Origin: Enchytraeus crypticus
Lineage: Eukaryota > Annelida > Clitellata > Enchytraeida > Enchytraeidae
Assembly: GCA_905160935.1 (NCBI GenBank)
Contig: CAJHZI010000263.1
Span: 717,501-781,500, forward strand
Reading direction: 5' to 3'
Length of the DNA: 64,000 nt
Numbering within the stretch: position 1 is the first letter of the stretch; every line of letters starts with the position of its first letter. Position numbers and translations under genes: made by a program. Positions 372-63,904 of the stretch are shown piece by piece. The notes under the pieces are model-generated. The model did no database searches and was not told the origin of the DNA. It saw only the letters and a list, made by a program, of their open reading frames with translations.

Positions 372-1063
372 CTCATGTCATTGAGGTTGGCTAGCTGATC
401 CTGAAACACCCTCTTCTCCTGCCTCAGCTTCTGCACCTCGAGTCTCAGCAGCTGAATGTCGTTCATCCTACAGCCGTACTGCTTCGAGCCCGCCTGGTAC
501 ATGGAGCCTATGACCTTGATCTTCTCGTGAAGAACCTTCACCTCTTCCTCTTTCTCCAGCAACTTCTTCTCGAGCATGGCCTGAGCCTGTACCATCTGCT
601 CAGCCTGGAGCTTGTCGAGCTTGATCTGAGCCTCTAGGTGAGAGTAAGCTCTCAGCAGGTTGTCTCTCTCAGTGTCTCCCTCTATCAGCTTCTCGTCCCT
701 CTTTCGTACCTCTGTCTTCAGCTTTCCTATCTCAAACTACACACACACACATGCATACACACATACACATACACATACACAAACATACACAAACATACAC
801 ACACATATACACATGCACGACATGCACGCACACGCACCTCTTACGTACCTCTGTCTTCAGCTTGCCTCTGTCAAACTATACACATACACACACACATACA
901 TACACATCACACACCCACGCGAGCGCAATCGGAAAATATATTCAATGTAGCATCGTGAATGTACATGTATGTAATTAATACACGTGTAGATCACACCCAT
1001 ATTCACATTACTGCCAAATGTATGAAATTAGACAAGCTAAACTTCATATTTGTTTCTTCCCCC

Positions 1064-1122
<59 letters not shown>

Positions 1123-2616
1123 TGTAGCTGAGCTAATCAAGCCACCTGTATGTGTGCATGTATGTGTGTCTGTACGCCTGGCTCACCTTGTTTCTCTCTA
1201 TCTCTCTCTGTAGCTGAGCTGATCGAGCCACTTGTATGTGTGTATGTATGTGTGTCTGAACGCCTGATTCACCTTGTTTTTCTGTATCTCTCTCTGTAGC
1301 TGAGCTGATCGAGCCACTTATAAGTGTGTATGTATGTGTGTCTGTACGCCTAGCTCACCTTGTTTCTCTCTATCTCTCTCTGTAGCTGAGCTGATCGAGC
1401 AACCTCACTCAGCACTTCTGCCTCTTTGAAGGACAAATCCTCTCTCAGCTGACTCACCTGACGATTTATCATCTTCATCTTATCCGCCTGGTCCTCCATC
1501 TCCTCCTGCAATCATCCAATCGCGCGTGGCCTTTCAATTATGCGTCATTCAATTAACCTATCACATGTGGCCTTTTAATTATGAGTCATTCAATCAACCA
1601 ATCACATGGGATCTTTCTATATTGAATCATTTAATCAACCTATCACGCATAGTATATCATTCTATCAAGCAATCAGACTTAGTCCGAATATTAGTTAATA
1701 CTCATAAAAAACTATTAGTTCGTAAAAAAATTAATGCTGAGCTTTAATAAGTACTGCACAAATTATTACACCATAAGATTTAATGATTTATATGGTAACA
1801 ATTACAGATCATCATCAGCATCTCTCCTTGAATCCCAGTTTAACAAGGGTCGGGCAAGCATAGATCGTGCCCATTCAAATTTAACCCTTTTTTACCGCTG
1901 GTACTTTGAAGTCCTTTTCCTATTACAAGTTATATCTATGACTTTCAATATGACCCCATACTTTACCAGCGGTGCTTGAAAGTCCACATACGAAACTAAG
2001 ACAATCTCGCAGTCTGGTTGCGAGAGAGACCAATTACCCAGAATGCTCAGCATCCAAACTGACCAATAGCGTCGTGTTATTCTAGTTTCAGAAAAATAAT
2101 CCTGGTAAAGTAAAATAAACACGCATTATAGTGAAATAATCAACTATGTCGATATCTATCACTTTTTAACACCACATGTTTAATCTATTAGGAAATTTAG
2201 TCCTTTTTCCGTGTAAAAGTCCAGTGAATGTCCCAGATTTTATTCTCAGATCAGCGCGGTTGGGATTCGAACCCACGAGGGTTCAATTCAATTCACCTCT
2301 TGATCTGCCCATTTAAAAGTTCATGACGTTATCCTTTGCGCTATCGAGACGTTCAAAGTGTAGTAGAATTGGTAGTAAAGTCCATAGACCCACCCGGACT
2401 CGTTCCATTTCTTTGCGGCAGATGTGGACGTGTCTCATGGAGTCGTTCAGTCGTTTCTGGGTCTTGACGAGCTCGGCGCGGGTCATCGGGTCAGACTTCT
2501 TCGTCTGTCCGTCACCCGTCGTCGTTGTCGTGGCGGCGGGCAGCGTCTCCTGACTCTCAGCCCCCTCCACCCCCGTCACCGCCGACTAGCAGCACAATCA
2601 ATACAACGCTTTATAA

Positions 2617-2672
<56 letters not shown>

Positions 2673-4001
2673 ACAATAATAATAATAATAATAATGATGA
2701 TAATAATAATAATAGAGGTTTAACATCCTTTTCCTCATCCAAGGATGATGTCAGGGACGTCCCCAATAGCACACGTCACAGATTATTTCGCCCAGAGTCC
2801 CCCAGATCAATCTGCAAAACAACAGTGCTGAGGAGAAGTAAGGTCCTAAAAGAAAGCCAGTCCTGTGTTCAAAAATGGTAAGGGTAGATTGATTATGTCT
2901 ACGGTGGGAAAAGGTAAGTCTTAAGCTTGCTAAACAAAGTTGAAAGAGAAAATCAAGAGCGAATCAACAATCAATACATCGTTTTATATCACTCTATCAC
3001 TCACAGGCTTTGAGCTAATATCATTTTGTAGACAGACGGAGAGATCTGCAATAAATCTCTCAATCAATCATGTAGGGGCAGCTAAATTTACTGTAACGGA
3101 TCAGCTTAATTGTAATAGGAGAAGTTAAGCACTATACAAAGTAAAATATTTGAGGGGTTCAAATCCTGCGCTCGTCCGTCACTGACATCGCTTTCGAGAG
3201 ATGAAACTGAAACAACATCGGTTTATAAACAATTAAACATTATAAGCTTGCAAGCTATGAAAAGGTCTTATGAAAAAGATATGACGGAACAGTGAATATA
3301 GAGAAGTAGTTGTAAATACCTTGGCCGTAGTGACCTTGAGAGCAGCTATCTAATATAGAGAAGTAGTAGTCCATACCTTGGCCCTAGTGGCCTTGAGAGC
3401 AGCTATCTCTGCCCTCCTCGCCTCTTCGTTCTCTTCCAGTTCCTTCATGATGGCATCGAGCAGTGACGTCAGCCGATCTTTGACGGCAGGGGTCGCATCG
3501 ATGTCCAAGAGCTCTGAGCTGAGTCTCTTTAAGGCTTGCTGGTGGTAGAACAGCCGCTCCCTGCAGAGATCTAGCTCAGCAGAGTCCTCTGCCGGCGGCT
3601 GTTCTTCCGTCTAAAAATATATAGTAAATATTGCGCGTCATAAAAAGGTGTTTCTATAATTTTTACATACTAGTAAATATTGCGCGCCATAAAAAGGGCT
3701 TTCTATAATTTTGATTATACCATTAAATATCGCGTGTGATAAAATGGTATTTTAATAATTTTTGAAGAATTGTGTTTATTATAAAATTTAAACCGCACAT
3801 TGAAAAAAGTCGCATAAATTACGCCCCAGTAACCTTACATGTATAGTAGAGAACGAGAATCAGGTGAGGCTTATTCCTAATAACTGTAGTTTTAATTTAT
3901 AACACAAGATAAACAATGAAGCTTTAACGCTATAAACGTACAATTGTTCATAACGAAAACTAAGCCTAACATGTCCAATGTTCACCACATACCTCCGCCA
4001 T
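372..4001 (-). CDS. CFAP58-like coiled-coil protein, 5' part of gene (5 exons)
   Basis: Exons in transcript order are 3993-4001 (ATG GCG GAG, then GTATGT), 3377-3610, 2394-2585, 1359-1505 and 372-736. All join in phase, giving 315 residues before the gene runs off the window. An in-frame TAG lies two codons before the ATG. The product is almost all charged coiled coil. The last exon has EKIKVIGSMYQAGSKQY, then RMNDIQLLRLEVQKLRQEK, which closely resembles the conserved block of CFAP58 (CCDC147), a sperm-flagellum and cilium protein. The exon before it (QVSQLREDLSFKEAEV) matches the block just upstream in CFAP58. In CFAP58 these blocks lie near residues 550-700, but here they end at 315, so this is a short-N-terminus relative or a divergent paralog. 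Family knowledge suggests an axonemal role. Membership is probable; exact orthology is not shown. Confidence 0.7.
843..885 (-). repeat. Extra copy of an acceptor and exon start (CFAP58-like)
   Basis: The minus strand reads TAG|TTTGACAGAGGCAAGCTG, then AAGACAGAGGTACG. This is a diverged copy of the acceptor and first ~36 bp of exon 372-736, separated from it by CA-rich sequence. Confidence 0.7.
1100..1400 (-). repeat. 86-bp tandem repeat of an exon end plus donor (CFAP58-like)
   Basis: The last ~45 bp of exon 1359-1505 (GCTCGATCAGCTCAGCTACA), the donor AAG|GTGAGC and about 40 bp of intron recur. Donors are at 1358, 1272 and 1186, with a fourth exon piece at 1115-1140 cut off by a CT run. Confidence 0.85.
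1885..2105. repeat. 220-bp dispersed repeat, copy 1
   Basis: The block starts TTTTTACCGCTGGTACTTTG and runs through CCAATTACCCAGAATGCTCA to a TAATCCTG end. It recurs at 50110-50330. Its first part contains an inverted pair around TACCAGCGG. In this copy it abuts SINE-B. Confidence 0.65.
2105..2338 (-). mobile_element. SINE-B copy (tRNA-derived)
   Basis: The minus strand has a tRNA-like head with B box GGGTTCGAATCC and the body GATCTGAGAATAAAATCTGG. It ends in GATATCGACATAGTTGATTA. Five copies are seen in the window. Confidence 0.75.
2710..2965 (-). mobile_element. LINE family D 3' end
   Basis: This copy has an ATT tail, the block CATCCAAGGATGATGTCAGG, and about 200 bp beyond. The minus strand reads like the end of a reverse-transcriptase frame (compare KLKTYLF in the copy at 37855-38110). 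Plus-strand ORFs over the adjacent AGT/AAT run are low complexity. Confidence 0.7.
3318..3412 (-). repeat. 57-bp duplication of an exon end plus donor (CFAP58-like)
   Basis: The end of exon 3377-3610 (ATAGCTGCTCTCAAGG, then CCAAG|GTATGG) is repeated once 57 bp further into the intron, with its donor intact (CCAAG|GTATTT). Confidence 0.8.
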
Positions 4002-4288
4002 TGTGCGCTAAAGATGTTCACTTGTGAAGCCGACAGAATCAGTCTCTTCTATTTTATCTTCTGCTTTCCAATTCACTCCTCCTTCCCTTCTTTTTTCCAC
4101 TTTTTCGTGAATCCTATTACTTCAATTAATCTCTACAGCCTAACTAAAGAAACACATTACGTTGTTCTCTAGCCATCACATTAGCTGCTATGACCGACTG
4201 ATAGATAATCAATTTCGAGTAGTTAAGGCTTCAAATTAAATTGTCATAAAACTAAGCTAAAATCTACTTCCGCATCATACGGGATATT

Positions 4289-4416
4289 GGCTGGAGCCAG
4301 TGGCGATGTCGATAAGATATTCGACCGAGGATCAGTATGTGCGGGGTTCAAATCCTGGGCTCGCTCGTCACTGACATCGCTTTCGAGTGAGGAAACTGAA
4401 GCTAACCTTAGCTTTT
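4289..4416 (+). mobile_element. SINE-A copy (tRNA-derived)
   Basis: It has a tRNA-like head (TGGAGCCAGTGGCGATGTCG as A box and GGGGTTCAAATCCTGG as B box), then the body CACTGACATCGCTTTCGAGT and the 3' end GCTAACCTTAGCTTTT. It is one of about a dozen copies in the window and serves as the model for the family. Confidence 0.8.
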
Positions 4417-5370: not shown

Positions 5371-5584
5371 GTTAGGCCTATAGGAATATCAAATTAAATA
5401 TTTCTGCATATGGTGCATATAGAGTAAATTTACTACTTCAATTATGCTGCACAAGACTGTTCGTCTCAGTACAAAATGTAAATATTTAAATATCACAAAA
5501 CATAATTTATTTACTTCTTATGACGTCATGCAAGTTACACTGTATTAGGTATTTATTACTTTCCGGGCAGAGCTTGGTTGAAAT

Positions 5585-7124: not shown

Positions 7125-7372
7125 TAAGTTATTGAACAGAATAGTTATTGAACAGAATAGTTATTGAACAGAATATTTATTGAACAGAATATTTATCGAA
7201 CAGAATATTTATTGAACAGAATATTTATTGAACAGAATAGTTATTGAACAGAATAGTTATTGAACAGAATATTTATTGAACAGAATATTTATTGAACAGA
7301 ATAGTTATTGAACAGAATAGTTATTGAACAGAATATTTATTGAACAGAATATTTATTGAACAGAATAGTTCG
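7125..7372. repeat. 16-bp minisatellite
   Basis: TATTGAACAGAATAGT/TATTGAACAGAATATT units, about 15 copies, lie in the CFAP58-SLC2A intergenic region. Confidence 0.9.
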
Positions 7373-7544: not shown

Positions 7545-8025
7545 GAATATGAGATAAGTGATGTATAAGATTAGCGATGCATTAGATAGGTGATGAATGC
7601 GATAAGTGATTAATGCGGTAAGTGATGTATGAGATAGGTGATGAATGCGATAAGTGATGAATGCGATAAGTAATGTATGAGATAAGTGATGAATGAGATA
7701 AGTGATGTATGAGATAAATGCTATATGAGATAATTGATGTATGAGATAAGTGATGTATGAGATAAGTGATGTATGAGATAAGTGATGAATGAGATAAGTG
7801 ATGAATGAGATAAGTGATGTATGAGATAAGTGATGAATGAGATAAGTGATGAATGAGATAAGTGATGAATGAGATAAGTGATGTAAGAGATAAGTGATGT
7901 ATAAGATAAGTGATGTATGAGATAAGTGATGTATCAGATAAGTGATTTATGAGAAAAGTGATGTAAGAAATGCAGTGATGCATGAGTAAAGCGAGAATAA
8001 GATAAGTGATGGATGAGATAAAGCA
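7545..8025. repeat. 16-bp minisatellite
   Basis: GAGATAAGTGATGTAT-type units, about 30 copies with frequent single changes. The minus strand reads as a Ser/Ile/Leu/His low-complexity ORF that is not a gene. It ends about 180 bp downstream of the SLC2A stop. Confidence 0.9.
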
Positions 8026-21808: not shown

Positions 21809-24800
21809 CTACACAGTAAAGAAAGGATACGGTAGGCGGAGCACCCAAACACCTGAGCTGTCAATCAATAGGCCATCATCACACTCGGGCCTAAAGAGTG
21901 GGCAGGGAGACGGGGCAGGCTGCACCCGAGGCCTAAGCTGCACTCTGATTGGTCCATTGGGCACAACAACATACAGCCTCATTAGTTGTGCTATAACCGG
22001 ATTGGTTGTTCTACAGAAATAAAATATAAACCGTTATTGGTCAGTTAATAACGTGCTTCTGTTACAAATTTGCTAAATGTGTAATTTACAAAATTTAAAT
22101 GTTTGAAATAAATAAAGAGATGCAGATTTCTACGTGTTGCATGAAAGTTTCAGAGACTTAGTTCTACTAAAATACTCTAAGAAGTGACCAGTGACCTCTA
22201 GAACTAGTGACCTCTAGAACCATTGACCTCTAGAACCAATGATCTCTAGAACCAGTGACCTCTAGAACCAGTGACCTCTAGAACCAGTGACCTCTAGAAC
22301 CATTGACCTCTAGAACCAATGATCTCTAGAACCAGTGATCTCTAGAACCAGTGACCTCTAGAACCTGTGACCTCTAGAACCTGTGACCTCTAGAACCAGT
22401 GACCTCTAGAACCAATGACCCCTAGAACCAATGGCCTCTAGAACCTGTGACCTCTAGAACCAGTGACCTCTAGATTGTTAGCTACGTATCTATCACCTCG
22501 GGTAGAGAGTAGACTCAAGACGTCACAGGTTCGTCGCCTCATCGAGCCGTCTCTGACGATAGGGATATGGAATTAGCTAATATTTGCATTCTGTGCCTGA
22601 AGACACCATCAGCAAGAGCTCAACTCTACATAAGAGAACCCTTAGAGTGGAATATAAATGTATCCCACTCACAAAAATAAAAATTAAAACAATACAAGTA
22701 GGTTTTACTTGACAAATTCACTAACCCACAGGGACAGGTGCAATAGAGGGGTATGTCTTGTGAGAGCAATCCATAGGCATTTTCTGATGAACTTTGATCC
22801 TGTATACAACAACAACATCATCAACAACAAAAACAACAACAACAACAAAAACAACAACAATATCAACAGCAGCAACAACAACAACAGCAATACCAATGAC
22901 TAGATTAGAGCGCTACTATTGTCAAAGACAACTCCCACTCACTCTCCTCTCTCTCTCTCTTTCTATCTCAGTGCACTTCCTACTGGCACAGCCGTTGTGT
23001 GTAACGCCTCCACTCTTCTCTGTCTTTCGTTTTTCTAGTAAACTAATAAAGTCGGAAAGATACTCGACCGCGGATCAGTATGTGCGGGTTTCAAATCCTG
23101 GGCTCGCCCATCACTGACAACGCTTTCGAGTGAGGAAACTGACGTTAACATTAGCTTTACCAGCTTTAACTCTAACCGGTATAACGGTCACAGTGGTTCC
23201 ACCGCTGATGGATCCCACGCAGCTCTGGGGCAGTGACTCGTACTCACTCCGCTCATCTGCTGCACTGCCCCACTGTCTGTGACCTTTGGGACACTCGTAA
23301 TCCAGGCCAAGGTACAGTCGTGCCATTGTGACCTTCACCTCTGCAGTAAACAAACAGTGCAATAAAACTAAACCCTTGTTGTTCTTGTTACATGAAAATA
23401 AAAGCAAAATATAGACAGTATAAATTACTATTACAAAAGAATTATACAATTTTTATTATAAATAAAAATAAAAGAAACTAAAACCATTTAAATTAAATAC
23501 AATAACTCAAGTTAAAACAGTTAAAATTAAATGGTATTCCTGAGGGGATGTCTTTGCCACAAAAATTCATTACAGCACAATTTGGATTTTATCTGTGCGC
23601 AATTTGGATTTCCTTTCGACCAATCAATAAACTCATCATTAGGTCATCATTTATTAAGTTTTTCCGGCTATATTTTAGCTGAAGATTTTAACTTTATTTT
23701 TGCACAAATTTCTACTTTCTTTGATATACCAGTAAATTATTAATAGCCATGATTTATTAAGTTATTACTTCTAAAATTATTGTTAGTCCTCTAACTAAGA
23801 ATAACAAAATGAACTTTAAGAGTAACTTAATTTAAAGCAATATACTTCAATACACTCTACTAATATACTATGATATAATACATATAGCCAATTATACTTG
23901 AGACAACTGTTAAAATGGGCAGATATTTTCATTCTGCTGCTAAGAATATAACAATAACGAATAGAACACGGTAGAAAGAGTTCTTAGTTAACTTTACTTC
24001 CCATTAAATTAAATACAAATATAGATAGAATCAAATAAAATTTATTCACTAAATAAAATTAAAACCAAGAGGTGACACCTGGCGAGTGACATTCTATTGA
24101 TAAATCGAGAGGCAGGAGATGTGGATCAGTGAAGTCAAACCCGGGCAGGTCCAGTCCTATAACACAACAGCAGAGATTGTGATCAATCAATCAATCAATC
24201 AGTCAATCGATTAATTAATTAATCCATCAATCAGTTAATCAATCAATCAATCAATCAATCAATCAGTCAATCAATCGAACAATCGATCGATCAATTTATC
24301 AATCAATCAACCAATAAATCAATCAATCGATGAATCAGTCATCAATCAATCAATCAATTAGTCAATGAATTAATCAATCAATCAATGGATGAATGAATGA
24401 ATCAGTCAATCAATCAATCAATCAGAAGATATACATACCGACACTGGGATCATAATCATTAGGATCGTCCAGTAGTCTAACGAGTGACCAGGAAGAGAAC
24501 TTAGGAAGACATCCAGGCCCTGAGTCACTGTGCAGCATACCAGGCAGGTAGCTCATTGTGGACTGCTGCTGTCTCAACACTGCACTAAAAGATGTAGCAG
24601 CTGTTCTTTCAGTTATTGTAGCAGCTGTTGTATCAGCTAGTGTATCAGCTGTTGTAGCAGCTGATGTAGCAGCTGACGTAGCAGCCGATGTAGCAACAGT
24701 TTTAGCAGCTGATGTAGCAGCAGTTGTAGCAGCCGATGTAGCGGCTGATGTAGCAGCTGTTGTAGCAGCTGATGTAGCAGCAGTTGTAGCAGCTGTTGTA

Positions 24801-29530: not shown

Positions 29531-30055
29531 AGGCAATGATACTACTATAAAACAACTCTCTCTCAGTGCATTGCCATGGCAGGTCCATGGTAGAATATGC
29601 CTCCACTCGACTCTGTCTTCTATTTTCCTCTTCATTTCTACATACGAGTGGTTCCCTAACTCATCAAACATTCCTTTTAATACACCATTACTCTTTGGGG
29701 ATTCTGCTTATGACGAGGTGGCCCCCTATGCCTTCCTCAGCTTGGACTAACATTTACTGGGCAGGGGCGTCACACACAAGTAAAACACGTAACGAATAAT
29801 AAAGTGGTATATCAAATAGCAGATTTACCAAAACAAGAAATTAGACCCCTACCCTATGACTGAAAGGATCCTGACGGTCAGCTGCAGTTCTGCCACAGTT
29901 ACAGTATGACTTAGTGACCACGTCACTGTTGTGGTCTAACACAGGCAAGTGTGCAGTGCCCTCTAGCACAGGCATATCTGCCAGTCTATGTAGCTATGAG
30001 TACACACACACACACATACACATAGGCATATCTGTCAGTCTACACTGCTGTGAAT

Positions 30056-30086
<31 letters not shown>

Positions 30087-30400
30087 CACACAAACACACA
30101 AGCATATCTGTCAGTCTATGTAGCTATGAGTACACACACACACATATACACACACACAAACATACACACAGGCATATCTGGCAGTCTACGTAGCTGTGAA
30201 CACACACACACATACACACACACATACACAAATATATATGTACATATTTATACACACATATACTCACACATATACAAAGAGAGAGCGAGATCGTGTGTGA
30301 GAAGGAGAGAATGAGAGTGAGTGGATGAGAGGGAGGGAGAGATAGAGAGTGAGAGAGATGTAGAGAGAGAAAGACAGAGATAGAGAGAGAGAAAGAGAGG

Positions 30401-30440
<40 letters not shown>

Positions 30441-33400
30441 ACCTGATTTACACAATGACGGCCAGTGAGGCTAATCTCTTCACACATTTGACGACCGTTG
30501 AGCCAGTAAGCCTGGCAGTCTGCCTGAAGTCTCTCTAGATATGTGTCAACAACACATCCTCTAGCGTGCTGCATGAACAACACCTCAGCCTGCTCCATCT
30601 GTCCATCAATCAATCAATCAGTCAATCAATCAATCAATCACTCAATCAATCACACAGCCTCTAGCGTGCTGCATGAACAAAACCTCAGCCTGCTCCATCT
30701 GTCCATCAATCAATCAATCAGTCAATCAATCAATCAATCACTCAATCAATCACACAGCCTCTAGCGTGCTGCATGAACAAAACCTCAGCCTGCTCCATCT
30801 GTCCATCAATCAATCAATCAGTCAATCAATCAATCAATCACTCAATCAATCACACAGCCTCTAGCGTGCTGCATGAACAAAACCTCAGCCTGCTCCAACT
30901 GTCCATCAGTCAATCAATAAATCAATCAATCAGTCAATCCATCTTTCAATCAATTAATCGATCCATCAGTCAATCATTTAATCAATAAATTCATCAGTCA
31001 ATCAATCAATCAATCAATCATTGATTCACTCAATTAATCAATCAATCAATCAATCAACTAAACATGAGCCAATGCGTGTAATCAATTTTATTAGTTTGTT
31101 CCAGTAATTTAATTAACCAATGATTTACTCAATCAGGATTACCACTAAAACGTCAGATGGATTGCGAACACTCACAGGAAGAGATCACTTAAAGAGATCA
31201 CTTAAAGAGATCACTTAAAGAGGTCACTTAAAGAGATCACTTAAAGAGATCACTTAAAGAGATCACTTAAAAGAGATCACTTAAAGAGATCACTTAAAGA
31301 GATCACTTAAAGAGATCACTTAAAGAGATCACTTAAAGAGATCACTTAAAGAGATCACTTAAAGCTTTTCAAGAGAAATAAAAGCAACAATAAACACTTC
31401 TACGTTGTTTCAGTACAATTTCCTGCTGCATCTCCAGCAATGTCAACAATCTGACTTCTATTCACTTGGCGCCGTCAGACGCGATACCTGGCGAACAAAG
31501 AGATAAACCAAACCTTAGAGATGTGGTAGGAGAGTGTGTAGTGCTCGGGTAGCAATGAGATAAACCAAACCTTAGAGATGTGGTAGGAGAGTGTGTATTG
31601 CTCGGGTAGCAATGAGATAAACCAAACCTTAGAGATGTGGTAGGAGAGAGTGTAGTGCTGAGGCAGACCCTCCTGGTACGTCGCCTGGGCCAGTGGAAGC
31701 AGCTTAGCGCAGCGGCTGTAACAACAACAACAACAGTCATTTTCAGTATGTGCTGGTACAGTAACCGGAGAAGAAACAAAATTTGACTCATAGAAATCTA
31801 CTTTAAAAAAATTACCTCATAATGAAATATGCCTCATAACTTCTGCCTCATTTACATGTTGATATGCTTACCTACTCCTCTATTTGCGTAATTAACTAAT
31901 TTTATTTCATAAAGTTTTATTCATTTATTTACAAGCCTTTGTAACAGAATTGATTGATCAACGGAGCGCACATTAGAGGCTGCAGAACAGAGACTTAGCA
32001 TCCGGTTCATCTTCAGATGATGATGTTAGGGACGTCTCAGGCACTAATCTCTACAACCAGTCCATATTTTGATAAACACGCTTTAAACAGCATAACATTA
32101 TGTCGAGTCACACAGCCATTAGATAATAGCTCTAGGTTCTTTAAAAAATATTATTACAATTAAGAAATTAAGAAAGACGACTGGAGAAAGTCTATTTGCA
32201 TCCCGACCCTGATTAAACTGGGATTTAAGGGAAGATGATGATGATGATGATAATTAAGAAGTTATTAATTAATTAATTCTATACAAATTAAGAAACGGGT
32301 ATAAAGTTATTAAATCCCGAAGATGATGATTATAATTAAGAAGCTATTAAATAATTAATTCTACACAAATTAAGAAATGGTAGAAAGTAAACCTCTCAGA
32401 GAATCTGATGTCTAGGTCGTGTAGATTAGAGAGTATGGCTGAGATCTTTGGCTCCCATGTGTCTACCAGCATCAGCCCACGCAGTCTATGTACCGTCTCA
32501 AACCAGGCAGTGAACGAGCACACCTGCACACACACACACAGCTGCAGTTGTCATCAACGTGTGAGGAAACTGATATTAGATTAATTAAATTAATGAAATT
32601 AATGGGCTAAATTATAGATTTATCGAAAATAATAATTATCAAGAACGGTAATAATAAATAAATAATAATAATAAATAATTATCAAGAACGGTAGTTCTAC
32701 TTCTTGTAAGCTAACAGCGACACTCAGTAATAAGCAAATATTGATTCTTCTAACAAGTGGTGATGTCAGTAAAATATTTGAACACAGAACAGTATGTGCA
32801 GGGTTCAAATCCTGGGCCCAGCCGTCACTGGCATCGCTTTCGAGTGAGGAAACTGACATTAACTTTTTAAATAAATATTTAATTAATTAATAGGTTCTAT
32901 AGAATTCTATGATCTTACAAAACAATTTCCTACTAACCTCAAAGACCGCTGCCACATTATTTCTGCCGACATTATCATCGAAGCCCCGCCCTAGCGCCAG
33001 CTCTACATGTGGGCGGAGAAACTCTGCAAAACCTCGTCGATGACTCCGCCCTGATTTAACCTCAATTGAACTTGGTCGATCCCTACTCCCTTCTGATTGG
33101 TTGTTTTTTAGGTCAGCAGTTGAGGAATCATCCAATCGTGTATCAGGTAAGCTTTTGGTAGAACGAGCTCTTCTATTGGCTTGATAGCTGTAGCCTGAGA
33201 ACAACAACAACAACATGACTAATTTTTTATCCAAGAAAACATTGGGCACTAAGAAATAGTCAAAATGGGAAGGCCAAAAAATTATAATAGTTACGTTAAA
33301 TAAGTACTTGTATAAATGATCAAAAAAGTAATATTACAAATAAGTGTAATTTATATTATTACATTAATGGCTGGAGCCAGTGGCGAAGTCGGTAAGATAC

Positions 33401-36400: not shown

Positions 36401-38385
36401 GGATGAATTCAATTCAAATATGAGAATAACACTTGTTAAAACTGATGACAATAATAACAATAATAAAGGTTTAACGTCCGTTTCCTCATACAAGGATGAT
36501 GGCAGGGACGTGATAATAAAATTATCAAACCTGAGTGCATCCAGGGTCTTAAAGAGGTTTATGTAGGACGGGTCAAAGGTCACACCAGGGCTAACCAACT
36601 GCAATGGAATAAATACAATAATCAAGCATAAAATAAGTAAATAGTTATATAATTAATTAGAAGAAATATAAATCTTTAAAAATTAATTTATGCACAGAAA
36701 ATATGTACATATATATAAATATAAAATACGCATGTATAGGCCTACCTGTTATCTAGTGCAATATATTCAAAGTATTCCCAAACACAAAATAAATAGGCCT
36801 AATATAGAAATAATAAATTATATAATCATTGTCATTATCTTCTTCCATTTGTTTCCAGTATGACTAAGGTCACGATACGAATAGACCTTCTCCACTCCAC
36901 TCTGTCCCATACCATATCATCAGTCAATCCTCTATTTTTCCATCCGTTTGAGACACTTTTGTAGCAATTTCTGGAGCCTAGGCGCTCAGAAATAGATAAA
37001 CAAATTTTTCCTAAACACACAGTATTTAAAAATTCACAATAAAGCAGTGTCAAAATTCCAACACAGGAGGATAAATTACTTAAGAACAGAGAATCTTCAG
37101 CTATAAATAATTTTCTAAATTTACTAATAAATAACAAATAGATTAAAAACTAATAAACAATTAATAACCAGAATGATATGAGAGACAGATAGAATAAAGA
37201 ACACAATCAAGTACTAACCAGTATGATATGAAAGACAGATAGAATAAAGAACAGGATCAAGTACTAACCAGTATGATATGAAAGACAGATAGAATAAAGA
37301 ACAGGATCAAGTACTAACCAGTATGATATGAAAGACAAATAGAATAGAGAACAGGATCAAGTACTAACCAGTATGATATGAGAGACAGATAGAATAAAGA
37401 ACAGGATCAAGTACTAACCAGTATGATATGAGAGACAGATAGAATAAAGAACAAGATCAAGTACTAACCAGTATGATATGAGAGACAGATAGAATAAAGA
37501 ACAGGATCAAGTACTAACCAGTATGATATGAGAGACAGATAGAATAAAGAACAAGATCAAGTACTAACCAGTATGATATGAGAGACAGATAGAATGAACA
37601 GCAGGGCTCTCGTATGAGAGTGTTCAGCTTGTCTCCAAAGCTCCAGAAAATTCTGTTTTATAAATATCCACATACAATCAGATTAAAGTAACGTTATTTT
37701 AAACAACCAGCAATACCAAGAACACAGAATCTCAACAACTGAAATGATCTTAATAACTTTGAATTCTCAAACAGAAATGATCTGACTATCATCAGAGAAT
37801 TGGTTGATCTGAAAATTATCTGAATTAATTATCATGTGAGAGACAGATAAAATAATAATAATAATAAAGGTTCAACGTCCGTTTCCTTATCCAGGGATGA
37901 TGTCAGGGATGTCCCCAACAGCACACATTACTAGAGATCAATTCACCCAGACCAATCTGCAATAGAAATGTGCTGAGGAGAAGTAAGTCCTAAACGAAAG
38001 CCAGTCCGGCGAACAAAAAATGGTCAGGGTAGATTGATTATGTCTATGGCGGGAAAAGATAAGTCTTAAGCTTTCTAGAGAATGTTGAAAGAAAAAAACA
38101 AGAGGGAAGATATTTTTTAAAAGAGTTAGAGTAGAGGAGAACCTGCGAGTTGTCCTTAGCGAGAGTAGAGAGACGAGTGAGACAGGCTGGGTCTGCACCG
38201 CTGATCAGGTGCAGGTAGATGACACTAGTCGTCGAGTCATAGCAGCCTTCTATATAGCACTGCATAAAGTGCATAGCAATCAAACAATGCAGTGAATCAG
38301 ACAGTATGCCTACTATATCTATATATCTATATCACTTTTGATATTGAATTTAAAATTTCTGTTATTATTTATATATATATATATT

Positions 38386-54225: not shown

Positions 54226-56642
54226 TCATAGGCTTTCGCCGGCCAGTCTTTCTGTTGACTCTGAAGAGTTGTAATTTGTGTCACAGCCCTGCAGTTTGAT
54301 GTGAGACACGACACGCTCAGTGGCATCTACTGCTTTGTCAATGTGCTGCAGTGTCAATCAACACAGATACATGCACTGAACAGAATCAGCGTATAAAACG
54401 ACAAATAGGACTTATCTCTCTCTCTCTCTCTCTCTTAGTGCACTGCCCACTGGCAGGTCCATGGTATATAACGCCTCCACTGTTCTCTTACTTCCGCTTT
54501 CCTCTCATTTCCACATATGAGTGGATCTTTAAATCATCTAACATACCTAATCTCGGCCTGCCCCTGCCTCTTTTTCCTTCCATTCTACCTTCTATGACCT
54601 CTATTTAAAGTTACCATCATCACTAATTCATTATTAATATGATAATACAAGATACGAAGCTATCATCATCACTTTTTCATTATCAATATGATAATACAAG
54701 ATAAAAAGTTAGTTTCATCGCCTGACTTCATTTACATCATCATCATGAAGTTAAATTGGTATAATTTAGTTTTAGTGAAGAAGTTCATTGCTCACCTCAC
54801 GTGGGTACAGCCAGTCTAGAAACAGAAGAAAGAAGTGATTGATGACTGCAAATATTAGAAACAGTTTACCAGCCACTAGACCACAATGCTCGTACCTACC
54901 ATACAGAAATAAACAACCAAATATAAACAGTTTACCAGCCACTAGACTACAGTGTTTCTACCTACCATACAGAAATAAACAACCAAATATAAACAGTTTA
55001 CCAGCCACTAGACTACAGTGCTCGTATCTAACATACAGAAGTAAACAACCAAATATAAACAGTTTACCAGCCACTAGACTACAGTGCTCGTATCTAACAT
55101 ACAGAAGTAAACAACCAAATATAAACAGTTTACCAGCCACTAGACTACAGTGCTCGTATCTACCATACAGAAATAAATTACAAACACAGAGCACACCTGT
55201 GTAGACAATCAACAGGTAAATAGCAATACAGTGTACACCTGTGTAGACAATCAACAGGTAAATAGCAATAGAGTGCACACCTGTGTAGACTATCAACAGG
55301 TACACAGCAATACAGTGCACACCTGTGTGCCAATCAACAGGTAAATAGCAATATAGTGCACACCTGTCTATACAATCAACAGGAAAATGGCTATAAAGTG
55401 CACACCTGTGTAGACAATCAACAGGTAACCCTCCACTCTTCTCCACAGATACCCCACTCTCAGCAAGCTCTTGTTCCCTGATGTTCAAGTAAACATTTTC
55501 CGTTCTCTCAGCGACATTCTGCCACGTGTACATACGCTTCACCGCTTCATGGCTCATGTAGTAGTCCGCTTCACTGCGCTTTCCTCGCTTTATAACACAA
55601 ATAGCGGCTTCCAGCTCACCCGTAAGAGCTGACAGCAACAACAATGAGAACAGTTAAATAACTCGATATACGTAATTTATAACACACATACAGTCATATG
55701 CACTTAACTGCTATTACAACAATCTCAATACATTAAATTTTATTTTCAATTTGCAATGGCTTAAAAGTCATTCCCTGTGTTGTGTCCGGGTCGTTTGAAG
55801 AATTAGACCAACCGGTGACTGCACGTGCCGTAGAAGGCGACTAACTCACTAAGATCCATACCAACGTCAGAAAGGGCATTCGGTTAGTGAGCGCCTAGGC
55901 TCCAGTAATTGCCACAAAACTTAAACGAATGGATAAAAAATCTATTCGTATCCCTGCCCTGGTTAAACTGGGATTTAAGGGAAGATGATGACGATGATGA
56001 ATGGTTTAAAGGTATATAATTTAATTAATAAAAAATAATTAATTAATTAATTAATTTTACTAATCAATAAAAATTGATAAAATAATTATTTAGTTACTTA
56101 ATCAATAAATTAATCAATTAAACACTTCAAATGAATTAATTTGATTAATTTATTAATCAATGTTAAGTTTGAGTCAGAAGGCAATTTCATAGGTGTAAAA
56201 TTACGCAATTCACTAAAGAACTATGTGATGTGAACAAGTGTTTTATATATTAGCAAGAAATGAGACCTGGAGGGAGTTGGCACAGATAGACAGTTGATAA
56301 ATGTACTAAGAAATAGGAAGAAGAGTTGGATAGGACACATTCTATGGGGGGAAGGTCTATTAAAGAGGTCATAGAAGGTAGAATGGAAGGAAAAAGAGGC
56401 ACGGGCAGGCCGAGATTAGGTATGTTAGATGATTTAAAGACCCACTCATATGTGGAAATGTAGAGGAAAGCGAAAGACAAAGAAGAGTAGAGGCGTCATA
56501 TACCATGGACCTGCCAGTAGGCAGTGTACTAAGAGAGAGAGAGAGAGAGACCTGTAGCACTGGGCTCAGCCAGTCTGATGAGATGAGGGGGTAAGACTTC
56601 AGGTACTCCCCCCACTCTCGTGCTTACCACCTGCAGTCTACA

Positions 56643-56783: not shown

Positions 56784-56862
<79 letters not shown>

Positions 56863-59800
56863 ATATATATATTAAAACACATACACTTAAATACACCCTT
56901 ACACATACATACATACATACCGATATATGCACACTAAAAGGAAGAACCAGTAAATCAGTGAGTCAGTCATGTAAGCAATACCCTTTATCTAGCTAAGCTA
57001 AGGGCAAATCAAGACTTGTAAATAGCAACATGTAACCACAGCATTAAGTATTAAGTAGAACAAGGCATAGAATTATCGGTTAATACAAGAATCATTCACT
57101 GAAGCTGATATTGGCAATATGAGGTGAGTCATGGAGAGCGGGACCTGTAAACATGTGCATAACGTAATTAGATTAAGAAGATAAAAGAAGTAGAACAAAG
57201 TTAAGACAGACCCGCAGGCTGCAGCCTCTACAATAGCGATGCAGAAAGCCTCTGTTAGAGATGTGTTGAGAAATATGTCTCCCTGTACCAGCACCTGACA
57301 CATATAAACACATAGAAACACATAGCACATAGAAACACATAGCACATAAAAACACATAGCATATAGAAACATATAGCACATAGAAACACATAGCACATAG
57401 AAACACATAGCATATAGAATCGCATAGCACATAGAAACACAAAGCACATATAAATACATAGCACACATAAACACATAGCACATACAAACCTACAGCACAC
57501 AGCACATAGTTACACATAGCACACATAGCACATAAAGACACAGAGTACACATAGCACATAGAAACACATAGCATATAGAAACACATAGCACATACAAACA
57601 CAGAGATGTCTCACTATAACAACACCTGACATATATACAAACGGACGTACATAAAAACACATAACACGATATGGTGAACTATACAGTCAAACATGAATAG
57701 TTTAGAAAAATGTAGAAATAGAAGCGAATACTGATAGAAGAAGAGAAACATACAGCTAGAAACAGAGAAGCATACATATAGACATATAGAAGCATACAGC
57801 TAAACATAGAGAAGCATACAGATAGACAAAGCATAGAGTTAGACATGGATAGGCATAGAGCTAGACATAGAGAAGCATCGAGCTAGACATATAGTAGCAT
57901 AGAGCTAGAGATAGAGAAGCATAGATCTAGAGATAGATAGGAATAGAGCTAGACACACATCTCTGACAGCAGAGTGCTCCACTGTGCCTAGCATATGAAC
58001 TCTGTCCTGTAGCTCATATCTCTCTCTCACCTCCTCTACTATCAACCTCTTAGGTCCATCCCCACCTACACATACATACACACATACATACACACATACA
58101 TATATACACCTCCTCTACTATCAACCTCTTAGGTCCATCCCCACCTACACATACATAATAATAACAATAATAATAACAACAATTACAGTGCTACAGCCAT
58201 CAATGACAACATCGAGCACTATTGAGACAAAATCCAGCTGGCGAGCAAAAAAAGAAGGTCCAAAAACTGTGCAAATTCCAAAATCCAGAAATTCAGTCCA
58301 AAGTAAAGGGAGTTAAAGAAAAGGTGGTTTAGGCGCAGGTCGCTGCTCATAGACACTGGATGGAAAAGAGAGATGGAAAAGATAGGTCATCAACTGCTTA
58401 TGGAGCTGCTCATAGGAAAGCAAAGGCTGATGTGATTCAAATGAAGATTTCTGAAGATTGGATGGAAGAGAATTCCAGATCTGAGGTGCAGCATGCTGGA
58501 AAGAACGATTAGATAGCTTAGAGCGTGAAGGTAAGCTATATCTCACAAGAGTAATTAACTTAGAAGACGAGTAATAGCAGGCTGCATCACTTTAATCAAG
58601 TGAGACATACAAGTTTGTCCAGGGATGGTGATGGACTTATAGGTTAACGAAGCAGTTTTGCAAATAATAAGCTCTTTAATCTTTATCCAGTGCAAAGACT
58701 TCAAAATAGGCGTAACATGTGAGTACTTGGAACTACAAAAAATTGCTCGCGCAAGAGAATTCTGAACAAACTGCAACCGATCAATCTCACAGCCAGGGAG
58801 ATTTAAAAACAGGGAATTGCAGTAGTCCAACTTTGATTGCACAAGAGCAGCACCAATTGTAGCAGCTGTCTCACGTGACAAATATGGACGTATTCGACGA
58901 AGATCACGGATATGGAAGAAACATGCTTGTGAAGTTTTAGTTATGTGTTTGTGGAAGGTTAGGTGTTTATCAAGGATAACACCGAGATTTGTCACAGAAG
59001 AAACAGGTGCTATTTTAATACCCGAAGATAACGAAAGAGCTTTCCCATTCAGCTTCAGAAGCTGTTGAGGTGTCCCGACCAACAAGAATTCAGTCTTAGA
59101 TGGATTAAGTGCCAAGAAATTAGCAGACATCCAAGAGGATATAGAATGAAAACTTTGTTGCAGGAGGGTTTCAGCATTAGAATAGGAGTTAGGGGTGAAA
59201 CAAGTGTACATTGAGTGTCATCAGCATATAGTTCATGATCAAGTGAATGAGAAGAGATTAGAGTGCTTAAGGGTGTTGTATAGAGGGTAAAGAGGATAGG
59301 ACCAAGAACGGAGCCTTGAGGCACACCATACTTTAAGTGAGAAGGCGAAGAGATGTACTCCATCACTTTCACACTAAAAGAACGATCCGTCAGATAGGAG
59401 GAAAACCAATCAAGAACAATTCCACGAACACCAAACCAGGAAGAAAGACATTCCAGAAGAATATTGTGATCAATGGTATCAAAAGCGGCCGAAAGATCAA
59501 GTATACATAATCCAGTTAAGCGTTGTGTGCACATGGCATTAACAATAGAATTGCACACAGATAGAAGCAACGTTTCAGTTGAACGATGCTTAGTATAAGC
59601 AGCTTGATGCTTATTAAATAGATCATTGTAAGAGAGATGAGTAGAAAGCCTCTGAAGAACAATTCTTTCAGTGAGCTTAGATATTTATGACAGATTAGAT
59701 ATAGGCCTGTAATTCGACAATAATTCCTTATCCAGTGTGGGCTTTTTAAGCAATGGAGTAATAACTGCACGCTTAAAAGCGCGAGGAAATTTGCCAGTAG

Positions 59801-61442
59801 AGAGAGAGAGGTTAACAATCAATGTTACTACTGGAGCAACTATGTGAATACACTTCTTTCAAAGAGAGGTTGGGATAGGATCCAAGTCACAATGTTTAGC
59901 TGGAGAGTCTAAAACTAATTTAGTAATCTCATCAATTGTAAATGGAGTGAAATTAGAAAGCTCATCTTTGGAATGATTCTCTACTGGAGTATGAGGAGTA
60001 GAGTTAGGAGCTGGAGTGATAGATTCTCTGAGATTGCATATCTTATCTGTAAAGTATTTGGAAAATTGTTCAGGCAGTGACTCCACAGGAGTAGAAGGAA
60101 GAGAAGGAGAAATAGATCTATGTAAAAGATCATTAACGGTTTTCCATACACACATACATACACACATACACATATACACCTCCTCTACTATCAATCTCTT
60201 AGGTCCATCCCCACCTACACATACATACACACATACATACACACATACACATATACACCTCCTCTACTATCAATCTCTTAGGTCCATCCCCACCTACACA
60301 TACATGCACACATACATACACACATACACATATACACCTCCTCCACTATAAAATTCTTAGGTCATCTCCACCTACACACATACATACACACATACACACG
60401 CATAAACACATACACAGAATTGGCAAATATCACGTCTGTTAAAAAAAGAAAACATATTATAACAATTAATAGTACGACAGTATTGAGACATAAAAAGAAA
60501 TGACGTTGTACCTAAGATGATGTGAACGTCACTATGTTTAAGACATATAGCTGGTATGATGTCATCAAGTCTTACCTATGATGAAGTGAACGTCACTGTG
60601 TTTAAGACATATAGCTGGTATGATGGAGTCAAGTAGATCTGCTCCCTTCCTATAGACAAGTCTGCTTAATACTATGATCGTTACTGAAACAATACAATGA
60701 ATTCCGGTTAATGCTCAATTCACATCGAACATTATCTAAGGAAAAAATAAATGCATTTTAAATGAAACAACAATTTAAATATCTTAAATTAGAATTATCT
60801 TAAATCAGAAAAACTGGAACGCAGCTATCACGTTACTGACATTCAACTTGAAGATTTGAAAGAGCTTTTGACTTAACTTAAGAAATGGTAACGATTAAAC
60901 TGCTCAGTGGAATTAATAGGAATGACATTGCTATTGTCATGTTGCACGATGAGGATTTTTCGCTGAGCTGAGCAAAATAAACAAACCGAAAAGCAAGTCC
61001 ATGCAGTTGATCCTCTGAAAAAACTTTATTCCATTGACTTATACGTAATCGACAAAGGCTGCATAGCACATGATACTCACGAAAAGATACTTGCATGCAT
61101 ATTTTAAAGGTAACGTCAAATCTAGAATAACAAGTCAGCGGACAAAATTATTCACTAACTTCAGAATGAGGGCCAGTTCCATTATAAACATTTACAGGTT
61201 CAGTAGTCACTTCTACCAGAAGAGTTAAATTACGCAACGTCATAGAAAACCATATATAAATATCATCCCTGTCAATATAGTGGTGTTTTAGTTGAAAGAA
61301 AACTGTAAGAAAATCTGAACGAACTTCTGCCACTAGCACGTCTACCAGGTTCAGGAGTGAACACAGTGGAGTCCACAGCATTAGGTATGACTGAGACTTT
61401 GTGTGGAGTCATGCTAGCTCTTAGTACTGTGTTCTCCTTGCT

Positions 61443-61473
<31 letters not shown>

Positions 61474-61549
61474 CAGAGTCTACAGCATTAGGTATGACTG
61501 TGACTTTGTGTGGAGTCATGCTAGGTCTTAGCACTGTGTTGTCCTTGCT

Positions 61550-61580
<31 letters not shown>

Positions 61581-63542
61581 CAGTCGAGCCTACAGCATTG
61601 GGTATGACTGTGACTTTATGCGGAGTCATGCTAGCTCTTAGTACTGTGTTCTCCTTGCTACAATCAATCAATCAATCAATCGATCGATAAATCAATCTAT
61701 CAATCAATCAATCGATCAATCAATCAATCAATCGATCAATCAATAAATCAATCTATCAATCAATCAATCGATCAATCAATCAATCGATCAATCAATAAAT
61801 CAATTTATCAATCAATCAATCGATCAATCAATCAATCAATTTATCAATCAATCAATCGATCAACCAATCAATCGATCGATCGATCAATCAATCAAGCAAC
61901 ATAATAAAAGATGCAGATTCTTAACTAAACAGCTAACACAATTAAAGGCTAAGTATGTCATATTAAAAGTAGCACTGGTAGCACTGGAGGTACAGAGAGA
62001 ACAGCAACAACAACAACAACACAAATAGCAAACATAGAGTTTAAATATCGCAATATTATATATGCTGATATCAGATCTTTACAGTGTAATATAATATACA
62101 AGAAAATACTCGGTTAAAAGAACAAAAACACAATACAGGATAAAATACATAAAAATACAAACCAAAATAAAATACATACCTGGTGCGTGAGATAGCGTAC
62201 TTAAATACGCCATCATAATGTTTAGTTACTTCATAATAGCCTATTTTGTATGTTAAAGAGACATATTTAACATACTAACAAAAACTCATTTATACACCAA
62301 CTGATTGTCTACACCCGATACAACATACCTGGTGTGTGAGACACTTATAACATGGTTGACTCCAGCCAATGAAAACATCTGATACAAAATACCTGGTGTG
62401 TGAGACACATATAACATGGTTGACTCCAGCCAATGAGAACATCTTATACAACATACCTGGTGCATGAGACACATATAACATGCTTGACTCCAGCCAATGA
62501 GAACATCTGATACAACATACCTGGTGTGTGAGACACATATAACATAGTTGACTCCAGCCAATGATAACATCTGATACAACATACCTGGTGTGTGACACAC
62601 ATATAACATGGTTGACTCCAGCCAATGAGAACATCTTATACAACATACCTGGTGCATGAGACACATATAACATGCTTGACTCCAGCCAATGAGAACATCT
62701 GATACAACATACCTGGTGTGTGAGACACATATAACATGGTTGACTCCAGCCAATGAGAACATCCGATACAACGTACCTGGTGTGTGAGACACATATAACG
62801 TGATTGACTCCAGCCAATGAGAATTTGAGAACTTTGTTAGTGAGAATTGAACTGGCATCAGCGAAACCGAACAACGAGTGATCGGTGAAGACAGCCTTGA
62901 TGCCCATTGTGCGCGCATGGAACATAGCCTCATGGGCCAGTGTGGAGAAAGCCTGAGCAAAAATTAACTCGCATAAAGCAACCCCCTTTTTTATCCACGC
63001 AAATAAAGCTAAACAGCTTTAAAGCTAAAAAACAGCGCTAAAGCTAAAAAATATTTTTAAAAAAAAAGCTAAACAGCAAATAAAGCTAAAACAAAAATAA
63101 ACCTAGAGCAAAGAATATAAGTTGTAATGGCGACTAAGGAGACTTTCTTTACTGAAATATTGTTTGGTATAAACAAAAGCATTATAGAAAGGCAAAACAG
63201 TATCTAGTATTGCCAAATTAACTGTCAAATATTAATATGCACCTAATATAATCATGAACTTAACGTGTTAAATTATTAAAGTGGACAAATCAGAACCAAC
63301 CAACTGAACAAATATTTAACTGCCCTGGTACAGAAGGAATACCCTGAGGTAGGCGAAATATAATATTTAAGACATAAGTTCAATTAATTAGGCTCATGCA
63401 TTATTTAGTCACAAAATTAATAAGTTAGTTTGTAAATTAAGATTTAAAACTTAACCGAGTGACCATGCACAATGTCAACGTTCTCTCTGATCAGAATGTT
63501 TCTAATGATCGGCAGAGCAGTGAAAATAGTCGGCAGCACACA
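54226..63542 (-). CDS. PIGA: PIGA, GPI-GlcNAc transferase catalytic subunit, N-terminus missing (10 exons seen)
   Basis: Exons are 63456-63542, 62777-62952, 61334-61440 (end uncertain; 61346 also keeps phase), 60576-60683, 57959-58065, 57212-57294, 56552-56637, 55406-55628, 54796-54895 and 54226-54345 (TGA). They encode about 400 residues matching PIGA from near human residue 115 to the end; the first ~110 residues must lie beyond 63542. PIGA transfers GlcNAc from UDP-GlcNAc to phosphatidylinositol on the cytosolic face of the ER, the first step of GPI-anchor synthesis. Seen are [59 protein letters not shown], the GT4 EX7E pair in [28 protein letters not shown] and [15 protein letters not shown] single membrane helix ([20 protein letters not shown]) precedes a short lumenal tail. 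Confidence 0.94.
54417..54606 (-). mobile_element. LINE family F 3' end with CT/GA microsatellite
   Basis: On the minus strand this reads as the C-terminus of a LINE reverse transcriptase ([17 protein letters not shown]-like). It is followed by the ACCATGGACCTGCCAGT block and a GA microsatellite. It is inside the PIGA terminal exon's upstream intron. Confidence 0.7.
54850..55185 (-). repeat. 66-bp tandem repeat of an acceptor plus exon start (PIGA exon 54796-54895), 5 copies
   Basis: TATGGTAG|GTACGAGCACTG, then TAGTGGCTGGTAAACTG, recurs at exactly 66-bp steps (plus coordinates 54864 to 55128). Sixty-six bp is 22 codons. Confidence 0.92.
55190..55430 (-). repeat. 42-bp tandem repeat of an exon end plus donor (PIGA exon 55406-55628), 6 copies
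   Basis: CCTGTTGATTGTCTACACAG followed by GTGTGCAC recurs with donors near 55404, 55362, 55321, 55279, 55237 and 55195. Forty-two bp is 14 codons, so the frame stays open. Confidence 0.92.
55770..56002 (+). mobile_element. LINE family E 3' end with GAT tail
   Basis: This is a second long copy of the family E tail (ACCAACCGGTGACTGCACGT, then GAGCGCCTAGGCTCCAG, then a GATGATGACGATGATGA end), in the PIGA intron between exons 56552 and 55628. Confidence 0.6.
56290..56550 (+). mobile_element. LINE family F 3' end abutting a PIGA splice donor
   Basis: The plus strand reads [20 protein letters not shown] and so on, then the ACCATGGACCTGCCAGTAGG block and a GA run ending at 56550. The PIGA exon 56552-56637 (minus) ends exactly there. 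Its donor is GTCTCTCTCTCT, so the intronic side of the splice site is supplied by the element's microsatellite. Confidence 0.75.
57300..57645 (-). repeat. TAGAAACACATAGCACA array and a diverged acceptor copy (PIGA exon 57212-57294)
   Basis: About 300 bp of a 17-18-bp repeat fills the intron next to the acceptor. At its far end (57604-57645) a diverged copy of the acceptor and exon start reads TATGTCAG|GTGTTGTTATAG. The array makes several low-complexity Cys/Tyr ORFs. Confidence 0.7.
57715..57958 (-). repeat. Repeat array against the donor of PIGA exon 57959-58065
   Basis: AGAGCTAGACATAGAGAAGC-type units of 20-22 bp run from about 57720 right up to the donor GTGTGT. They do not contain exon sequence. 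Confidence 0.7.
58030..58158 (-). repeat. 79-bp tandem repeat of an acceptor plus exon start (PIGA exon 57959-58065), left part
   Basis: TGTAG|GTGGGGATGGACCTAAG, then AGGTTGATAGTAGAGG, occurs at the exon and again 79 bp upstream. The series continues at 60175-60375 beyond the LINE insertion. Confidence 0.88.
58159..60143 (-). mobile_element. LINE family C: 5'-truncated non-LTR retrotransposon with reverse transcriptase, inside a PIGA intron
   Basis: This minus-strand element reads as a CR1/L2-like reverse transcriptase: [36 protein letters not shown] and the catalytic YADD. The usual C-terminal end region follows ([19 protein letters not shown]). The 3' untranslated tail (CAATTAGAGTGCTACAGTCAT type) ends in an ATT/GTT repeat at about 58159-58180. 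The 5' end at 60143 lacks endonuclease, and frameshifts split the N-terminal half, so it looks dead. It sits between copies of the tandem array of the next PIGA exon's acceptor and has CACATACA-rich flanks on both sides. Confidence 0.88.
60165..60380 (-). repeat. 79-bp tandem repeat, right part (three more copies)
   Basis: The acceptor-plus-exon unit appears at about 60205, 60284 and 60362 in 79-bp steps, the last diverged. Together with 58056 and 58135 it makes five copies. Confidence 0.85.
60509..60640 (-). repeat. 64-bp duplication of an exon end plus donor (PIGA exon 60576-60683)
   Basis: The exon end (ATACCAGCTATATGTCTTAA ... CATCATAG) and donor GTAAGA have a second copy 64 bp into the intron, with its donor at 60511 (CTTAG|GTACAA). 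Confidence 0.85.
61370..61665 (-). repeat. 107-110-bp tandem repeat of an acceptor plus exon start (PIGA exon 61334-61440), 3 copies
   Basis: About 75 bp of the exon (AAGGAGAACACAGTACTAAG, then TGACTCCACACAAAG) with TTGTAG acceptor and a GATT tract recurs. Copies begin at 61440, 61547 and 61657. Confidence 0.9.
61441..61905. repeat. AATC/GATT tracts upstream of PIGA exon 61334-61440
   Basis: Three short tracts lie between the junction copies, then a 240-bp degenerate tract with CGATCAATC units. Confidence 0.9.
62310..62830 (-). repeat. 64-bp tandem repeat of an exon end plus donor (PIGA exon 62777-62952), 8 copies
   Basis: Each unit encodes the exon end [14 protein letters not shown], then the donor CCAG|GTATGT. 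Steps are exactly 64 bp from 62357 to 62805. The array is free of stop codons in two frames over more than 200 codons, which explains the long overlapping ORFs seen here. Confidence 0.92.
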
Positions 63543-63745
63543 CTGGTTGTATATAGGTCTAATTGGTAGATAGTAAACCTATGCATACAACATTACACAC
63601 TGGTTGTATATAGGTCTAATTGGTAGATAGTAAACCTATACATACAACAATACACACTGGTTATATATAGGTCTAATTGGTAGATAGTAAACCTATACAT
63701 ACAACAATACACACTGGTTGTATATAGGTCTAATTGGTAGATAGA
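63539..63745 (-). repeat. 57-bp tandem repeat of an acceptor (PIGA exon 63456-63542), 4 copies
   Basis: ACCTATATACAACCAG|TGTG recurs at 57-bp steps (63544, 63601, 63658, 63715). The lower-most copy is the true acceptor. Confidence 0.85.
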
Positions 63746-63828
63746 AACCCGGCATACAAGAAGTTCCTTACAAATACACATTTATTTAACAGTAAGTAGT
63801 TGTATCTTTACGCAATTCAAGGACTTAC

Positions 63829-63904
63829 ACCAGTGGAAGGCTCATCGGTTTTGAAACTGTATTTTCCATCACACAACACAAGTGTGCTACCAGCCACAGT
63901 TGCC
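63829..63904 (-). CDS. Unassigned candidate exon upstream of PIGA
   Basis: This is a 76-bp open segment with a pyrimidine-rich acceptor (CTTTGCTCTTTAAG) and a strong donor (GTAAGT). It would encode ATVAGSTLVLCDGKY then SFKTDEPSTG. It lies where the next upstream PIGA exon is expected, and its phase fits the exon at 63542. However, the peptide does not match the PIGA segment I expect there. It may be a lineage-specific or alternative exon, part of another gene, or chance. Confidence 0.3.

Follow-up and report, generated by a model that had tools for sequence, protein, structure and literature searches.

Tandem arrays spanning exon-intron boundaries are over-represented at exon edges in tested genes of the annelid Enchytraeus crypticus

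In a 64,000-nucleotide stretch of the Enchytraeus crypticus genome (positions 717,501 to 781,500 of contig CAJHZI010000263.1, assembly GCA_905160935.1; hereafter the window), splice junctions of a CFAP58-like gene, of SMG8 and of PIGA lie within tandem arrays whose repeat unit is made up of an exon edge, the splice site and adjoining intron, and in two families sampled elsewhere in the genome, myosin head and kinesin, such arrays are enriched at exon edges. The window (12 arrays) and the independent sets (20) together yielded 32 junction-spanning arrays, 16 at donors and 16 at acceptors, with units of 31-117 bp present in 2.0-18.7 copies. Our data suggest that the arrays belong to the junction-spanning minisatellites known as mirages, here in an annelid, and that they probably stem from boundary-biased duplication. 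A stretch of roughly 30-120 bp across an exon edge would be duplicated in tandem and would then expand as other minisatellites do, presumably by slippage or unequal exchange; splicing would continue at the site that adjoins the exon, and the extra copies would be tolerated as intron sequence. Founding duplications would, on this reading, be several-fold commoner at exon-intron boundaries than elsewhere in or near the tested genes.

Because the window had been chosen for the feature, independent exon sets were taken elsewhere in the genome (searched assembly 524 Mb in 802 contigs, the window lying in contig C181). These comprised 114 exons of the two families, found by Pfam match outside the window, with 176 accepted junctions. 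A matrix derived from the window junctions served to place the splice sites, and edges scoring below 2 were dropped (35 of 148 in the myosin set and 17 of 80 in the kinesin set); of 81 myosin and 128 kinesin matches, 7 and 88 respectively were left out, the 40 kinesin exons being the best 35 by E-value less four (two long frames on contig C252 and two matches with at least three stops), plus nine neighbours. Arrays were accepted from Tandem Repeats Finder (TRF) at a score of at least 50, a period of at least 30 bp and at least 1.9 copies. Ten of 45 arrays span a junction in the myosin head set (74 exons, 36 merged segments, 177 kb, 113 junctions), against 1.3 expected, and 10 of 17 do so in the kinesin set (40 exons, 28 stretches, 38 kb, 63 junctions), against 1.8 expected.

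Arrays grow by copy insertion, so that no copy but the terminal one, adjacent to the exon, can hold a real junction, and a founder null, which places one founding unit per array randomly in the collapsed sequence, was preferred because rotation and raw-coverage nulls also count inner copies, where a real junction is impossible. Eighteen of the 176 junctions lie in a terminal array copy, compared with 2.6 under the founder null and a mean of 2.6 for decoys, i.e. exons set by the identical edge finder (2.61 and 2.64 per 176 junctions), and none of 400 decoy runs reached 18. An edge-free version of the test, which uses the Pfam-aligned coding blocks alone and makes no splice-site calls, found 21 of 62 arrays crossing a block edge, compared with 3.4 under the founder null and a decoy mean of 4.96 (maximum 13.1 over 1000 runs); a single array lay entirely within a coding block. 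These counts correspond to 9% of the 228 coding-block edges (21 crossings) and 11% of the accepted junctions (20 of 176). The distance profile of window and myosin arrays with a period of at least 30 bp is similarly skewed, with 22 spanning a junction against 3.3 expected, 10 against 5.0 within 50 bp, 25 against 48.6 (about half) at 100-1600 bp, and numbers at expectation beyond 1600 bp. The first-pass annotation of the window, made from its letters alone, had proposed a process that preferentially duplicates exon-intron boundaries, with break repair near R-loop- or spliceosome-linked sites as a putative example; the over-representation at exon edges is borne out by the two tests outside the window, and as to cause, such a process is only compatible with the data.

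In the window, 52 splice junctions were placed in four genes (the CFAP58-like gene, a Sugar_tr transporter, SMG8 and PIGA), a fifth gene with a UQ_con domain being left out of the junction set. From 155 rows of TRF output, arrays with a period of at least 20 bp lie over 12 of the 52 junctions, one junction per array (7 donors and 5 acceptors; periods 42-107 bp, 2.0-8.8 copies), and over none of the four junctions of the transporter gene. The first-pass annotation had listed 15 junctions in the other three genes as tandemly repeated, and every one of them is accompanied by additional copies of its exon edge and adjoining intron (12 found by TRF, 3 by local alignment); the repeats at 737 (CFAP58-like) and 57295 (PIGA), which it had called weak, were upheld by alignment, the latter as a decayed copy. 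The arrays and copies are as follows.

698..751, minus strand: authentic copy of the CFAP58-like exon Ed acceptor (exon start 736); local alignment score 78, shuffle maximum 34; no TRF call
837..890, minus strand: extra copy, upstream, of the acceptor and head of CFAP58-like exon Ed (local alignment)
1107..1400, minus strand: CFAP58-like exon Ec donor array (exon end 1359), 86 bp x 3.4 (TRF), GT kept in the extra copies
3295..3408, minus strand: CFAP58-like exon Ea donor array (exon end 3377), 57 bp x 2.0 (TRF)
29970..30234, minus strand: SMG8 exon 11 acceptor array (exon start 29993), about 70 bp x 3.2 (TRF)
30552..31052, minus strand: SMG8 exon 10 acceptor array (exon start 30598), 100 bp x 3.9, merging into a GATT microsatellite (TRF)
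31496..31659, minus strand: SMG8 exon 9 donor array (exon end 31628), 57 bp x 2.9 (TRF)
37158..37595, minus strand: SMG8 exon 2 donor array (exon end 37569), 50 bp x 8.8, at a single place in the genome (TRF)
54859..55177, minus strand: PIGA exon 10 acceptor array (exon start 54895), 66 bp x 4.8 (TRF)
55186..55428, minus strand: PIGA exon 9 donor array (exon end 55406), 42 bp x 5.8 (TRF)
57275..57306, minus strand: authentic copy of the PIGA exon 7 acceptor (exon start 57294); local alignment score 39, shuffle maximum 26
57606..57637, minus strand: upstream copy of the acceptor and head of PIGA exon 7, decayed (local alignment)
58028..58105, minus strand: authentic copy of the PIGA exon 6 acceptor (exon start 58065), about 2 kb from its own array; local alignment to 60145-60416 with score 146, shuffle maximum 47
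60145..60416, minus strand: what remains of the array at the PIGA exon 6 acceptor, 79 bp x 3.4, on the upstream side of the intervening stretch (TRF and local alignment)
60509..60634, minus strand: PIGA exon 5 donor array (exon end 60576), 64 bp x 2.0 (TRF)
61362..61685, minus strand: PIGA exon 4 acceptor array (exon start 61440), 107 bp x 3.0 (TRF)
62317..62823, minus strand: PIGA exon 3 donor array (exon end 62777), 64 bp x 7.9 (TRF)
63538..63749, minus strand: PIGA exon 2 acceptor array (exon start 63578), 57 bp x 3.7 (TRF)

The splice sites contiguous with the exons appear to be those used in regular splicing, as the exons of CFAP58, SMG8 and PIGA, when joined, give a single open frame each and these frames align with known proteins. 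The window SMG8 aligns to the human protein (E 4e-73), the PIGA model shares 61-72% identity with six other PIGA proteins, and one exon of the CFAP58-like gene matches the Pfam CFAP58 coiled coil. Compared with other PIGA proteins the model is about 7 residues short at the exon 4 donor and has about 11 surplus residues in exon 9; the position of the exon 4 donor is uncertain, and that donor carries no array. Exons of the three genes have a GC content of 0.507 and introns 0.352. The SMG8 exon at 24422-26011 (minus strand, 529 codons; Smg8_Smg9, E 8.8e-14) contains long tandem repeats that stay in frame (12, 21 and 30 bp). A long interspersed nuclear element (LINE)-like stretch that carries a frame for reverse transcriptase (RVT_1, E 9.6e-20) at 58160-60140 (minus strand) splits the PIGA exon 6 acceptor array. 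Elsewhere in the window (28199-29203, 7127-7370, 7548-8021 and 22187-22474) there are long, regular arrays with a 16-17 bp period, at most 59 copies and 98% match, a class distinct from the 40-107 bp junction arrays.

Arrays at the two ends of an intron tend to occur together in the introns of the four window genes, where an acceptor array is present in 5 of 7 introns that have a donor array vs 2 of 17 that lack one (Fisher P 0.009; 0.06 with TRF arrays alone), and arrays at both ends of the same exon occur in 0 of 24 exons (P 0.05). No donor and acceptor array pair within one intron was noticed on reading the myosin and kinesin array lists, for which no count was run. Within the unit, centring of the junction is weak (P 0.015 overall, 0.15 in the independent sets). 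Seven spanning arrays have 2.0-2.2 copies, and their array length minus two units is -2 to 13 bp; with a length so close to two units, long flanking homology is unnecessary.

Copies were compared in 29 of the 32 spanning arrays, three being left out. GT is present in every scored extra copy at donors, and AG in most copies at acceptors. Among extra copies the donor dinucleotide shows 0 deviations in 104 bases (P 0.03), or 0 in 208 when the two exon bases are added (P 0.0008, with columns picked after the profile had been seen), and 0 in 114 when compared with the authentic copy (P 0.007), whereas the acceptor AG deviates in 6 of 104 bases (P 0.29) and is about as variable as other positions. 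The exonic and intronic halves of extra copies vary to a similar extent at donors (4.4% vs 3.7%) and at acceptors (7.6% vs 8.6%). The donor figures would be expected if selection retained junction duplications because the extra splice sites support or buffer splicing, and the earlier suggestion that extra sites buffer one another is to this extent in keeping with the donors and at odds with the acceptors. Periods are evenly spread over the three remainders on division by 3 (10, 10 and 12 arrays), and 22 of the 32 are not multiples of 3, so use of an inner copy would often shift the frame. We regard selection as an unlikely explanation.

Alternatively, ancestral introns may have been so short (about 60-100 bp) that most duplications of 40-100 bp touched a junction, the introns growing later through other insertions. 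PIGA intron 9 (54896-55405) would fit this scenario, for 502 of its 510 bp consist of the exon 9 donor array and the exon 10 acceptor array and it must have been very short beforehand. Arrays that abut a junction are also common, 8 of the 14 non-spanning arrays within 50 bp of a junction (window, myosin and kinesin) lying within 12 bp of it. In the window such arrays, starting a few bases off a junction without crossing it, lie at 1509-1646, 30306-30441, 32240-32392, 57299-57573 and 57728-57955, and they may be decayed or one-sided junction arrays. Other array-bearing window introns, however, are 400-2500 bp long, and spanning arrays are so uniform internally (median match 92%, against 85% for other arrays, at periods of at least 40 bp) that the remaining growth would have to be recent as well. 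We consider a history of short introns improbable, somewhat more so than selection.

Chance would suffice if, in a minisatellite-rich genome with exon-dense genes, some arrays simply happened to cover exon edges. Raw overlap regardless of copy is indeed nearly flat in the independent sets (20 vs 16.9 in decoys), the myosin set giving 10 vs 6.3 and the kinesin set 10 vs 13.2, which is below its decoys. In the window, which had been selected for the feature, the rotation null gives 12 junction arrays vs 5.5 expected at periods of at least 40 bp (P 0.002), 6.2 at 30 bp or more (P 0.007) and 6.8 at 20 bp or more (P 0.019), and the excess is no longer significant once arrays down to a 10 bp period are admitted (12 vs 9.7, P 0.22); the founder null for the window gives 1.9-2.1. 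The nearly flat raw overlap weighs against boundary-biased duplication, as do the dependence of the excess on the argument that a real junction fits the terminal copy alone, the small size of the independent sample (two gene families, 114 exons) and the constancy of the donor GT, which hints at selection beyond plain neutrality. When the terminal-copy rule is dropped, decoys reach 5.0 times the founder null, and raw overlap is therefore not comparable with that null. Since the myosin and kinesin genes were not picked for the feature and still gave the terminal-copy and edge-free excesses described above, chance is very unlikely. The premise of the first-pass annotation that minisatellites should rarely span exon edges is nevertheless weak in this genome because arrays are dense in it, as the raw overlap illustrates. 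Base composition as the sole cause was rejected, arrays away from junctions being AT-richer than the noncoding background (GC 0.313 vs 0.340).

That the arrays are remnants of intron birth, in which an exon stretch containing AG|GT was duplicated in tandem to create the introns, is highly improbable: several donor units do read AG|GT, and new introns are proposed to arise from mirages by the authors of the amphioxus globin study (PMC3087553), but the intronic half of a donor unit would then be expected to resemble the head of the following exon, and in the PIGA exon 3 donor unit, the one intron compared by reading, it is unlike the start of exon 4. Collapse or invention of arrays by the assembler is hardly credible, for although our view is at assembly level and 80.6% of PacBio reads are given as mapping in the E. 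crypticus paper, the published nuclear assembly is described there as gapless and long-read based (525.2 Mb, PacBio plus Illumina, 910 scaffolds stated; PMC8460440, consulted in part), substitutions distinguish the copies, and the feature was found again on many contigs. COX1 on contig C802 shares 95% identity with proteins named Lumbriculus, Mesenchytraeus and Enchytraeidae, and amphioxus was rejected as the source of the DNA. Five further COX1 matches with stops occur in the assembly, on contigs C361, C424, C796, C373 and C166 (the last under the cut-off), and are probably nuclear mitochondrial DNA copies.

Boundary-biased duplication thus remains the reading that we favour. Candidate causes of the bias are a hot spot at the boundary, a hot spot in exons whose products survive only at the edges, and selective retention; the most likely source would be a duplication process drawn either to the boundary itself or to the exon, where duplications away from the edges would not be tolerated. 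More tentatively, and we would not be surprised to be wrong, duplication drawn to boundaries may act genome-wide in E. crypticus, placing junction minisatellites at about one in ten junctions, perhaps with selection for extra donors, and would then steadily feed intron growth and the stock of spare splice sites, having arisen separately from the process behind amphioxus mirages or being shared with it. In the papers cited here, as far as their accessible text goes, mirages had been described for a handful of lancelet genes (PMC3087553, PMC3902484). The frequency in this annelid allows counting to address what duplicates exon edges; it bears on intron growth and on how splicing proceeds past near-perfect extra sites, and gene predictors may stumble in genomes of this type.

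The mirages of amphioxus are reported, in the portions of the two papers that we consulted, from the globins BflGb6 and BflGb9, from Adh3 (the first case), and from TnC and PGBD5; length and somatic instability are described for Adh3, and splicing is apparently normal in mirage genes (PMC3087553, PMC3902484). The E. crypticus arrays share with them a tandem unit that spans the exon-intron boundary, duplication of both 5' and 3' boundaries, and splice signals in many copies. They differ in that the host is an annelid rather than a cephalochordate, in that the likeness is drawn here from the anatomy of one assembly, in that enrichment is measured here over many exons, and in unit length, 31-117 bp compared with 10-72 bp (Adh3) and 150-160 bp (globins). 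Intron gain by tandem genomic duplication in potato RdRp (PMC4974935, seen in part) likewise involves intragenic tandem duplication that adds splice signals, but a new intron was formed there, whereas here existing introns carry copies of their own borders and three gene models keep their frame. Closer in kinship are the minisatellites of earthworm metallothionein intron 1 (PMC12783039), also intronic arrays in a clitellate annelid with monomers of at least 25 bp; junction-spanning arrays are undescribed in the available part of that paper, which does mention exon 4 duplications in one clone. Literature searches, mostly of titles and abstract openings, returned no report of junction-spanning arrays in annelids. 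The mirage kind is thus already known, and what is new is its occurrence in an annelid and its enrichment away from the locus of discovery.
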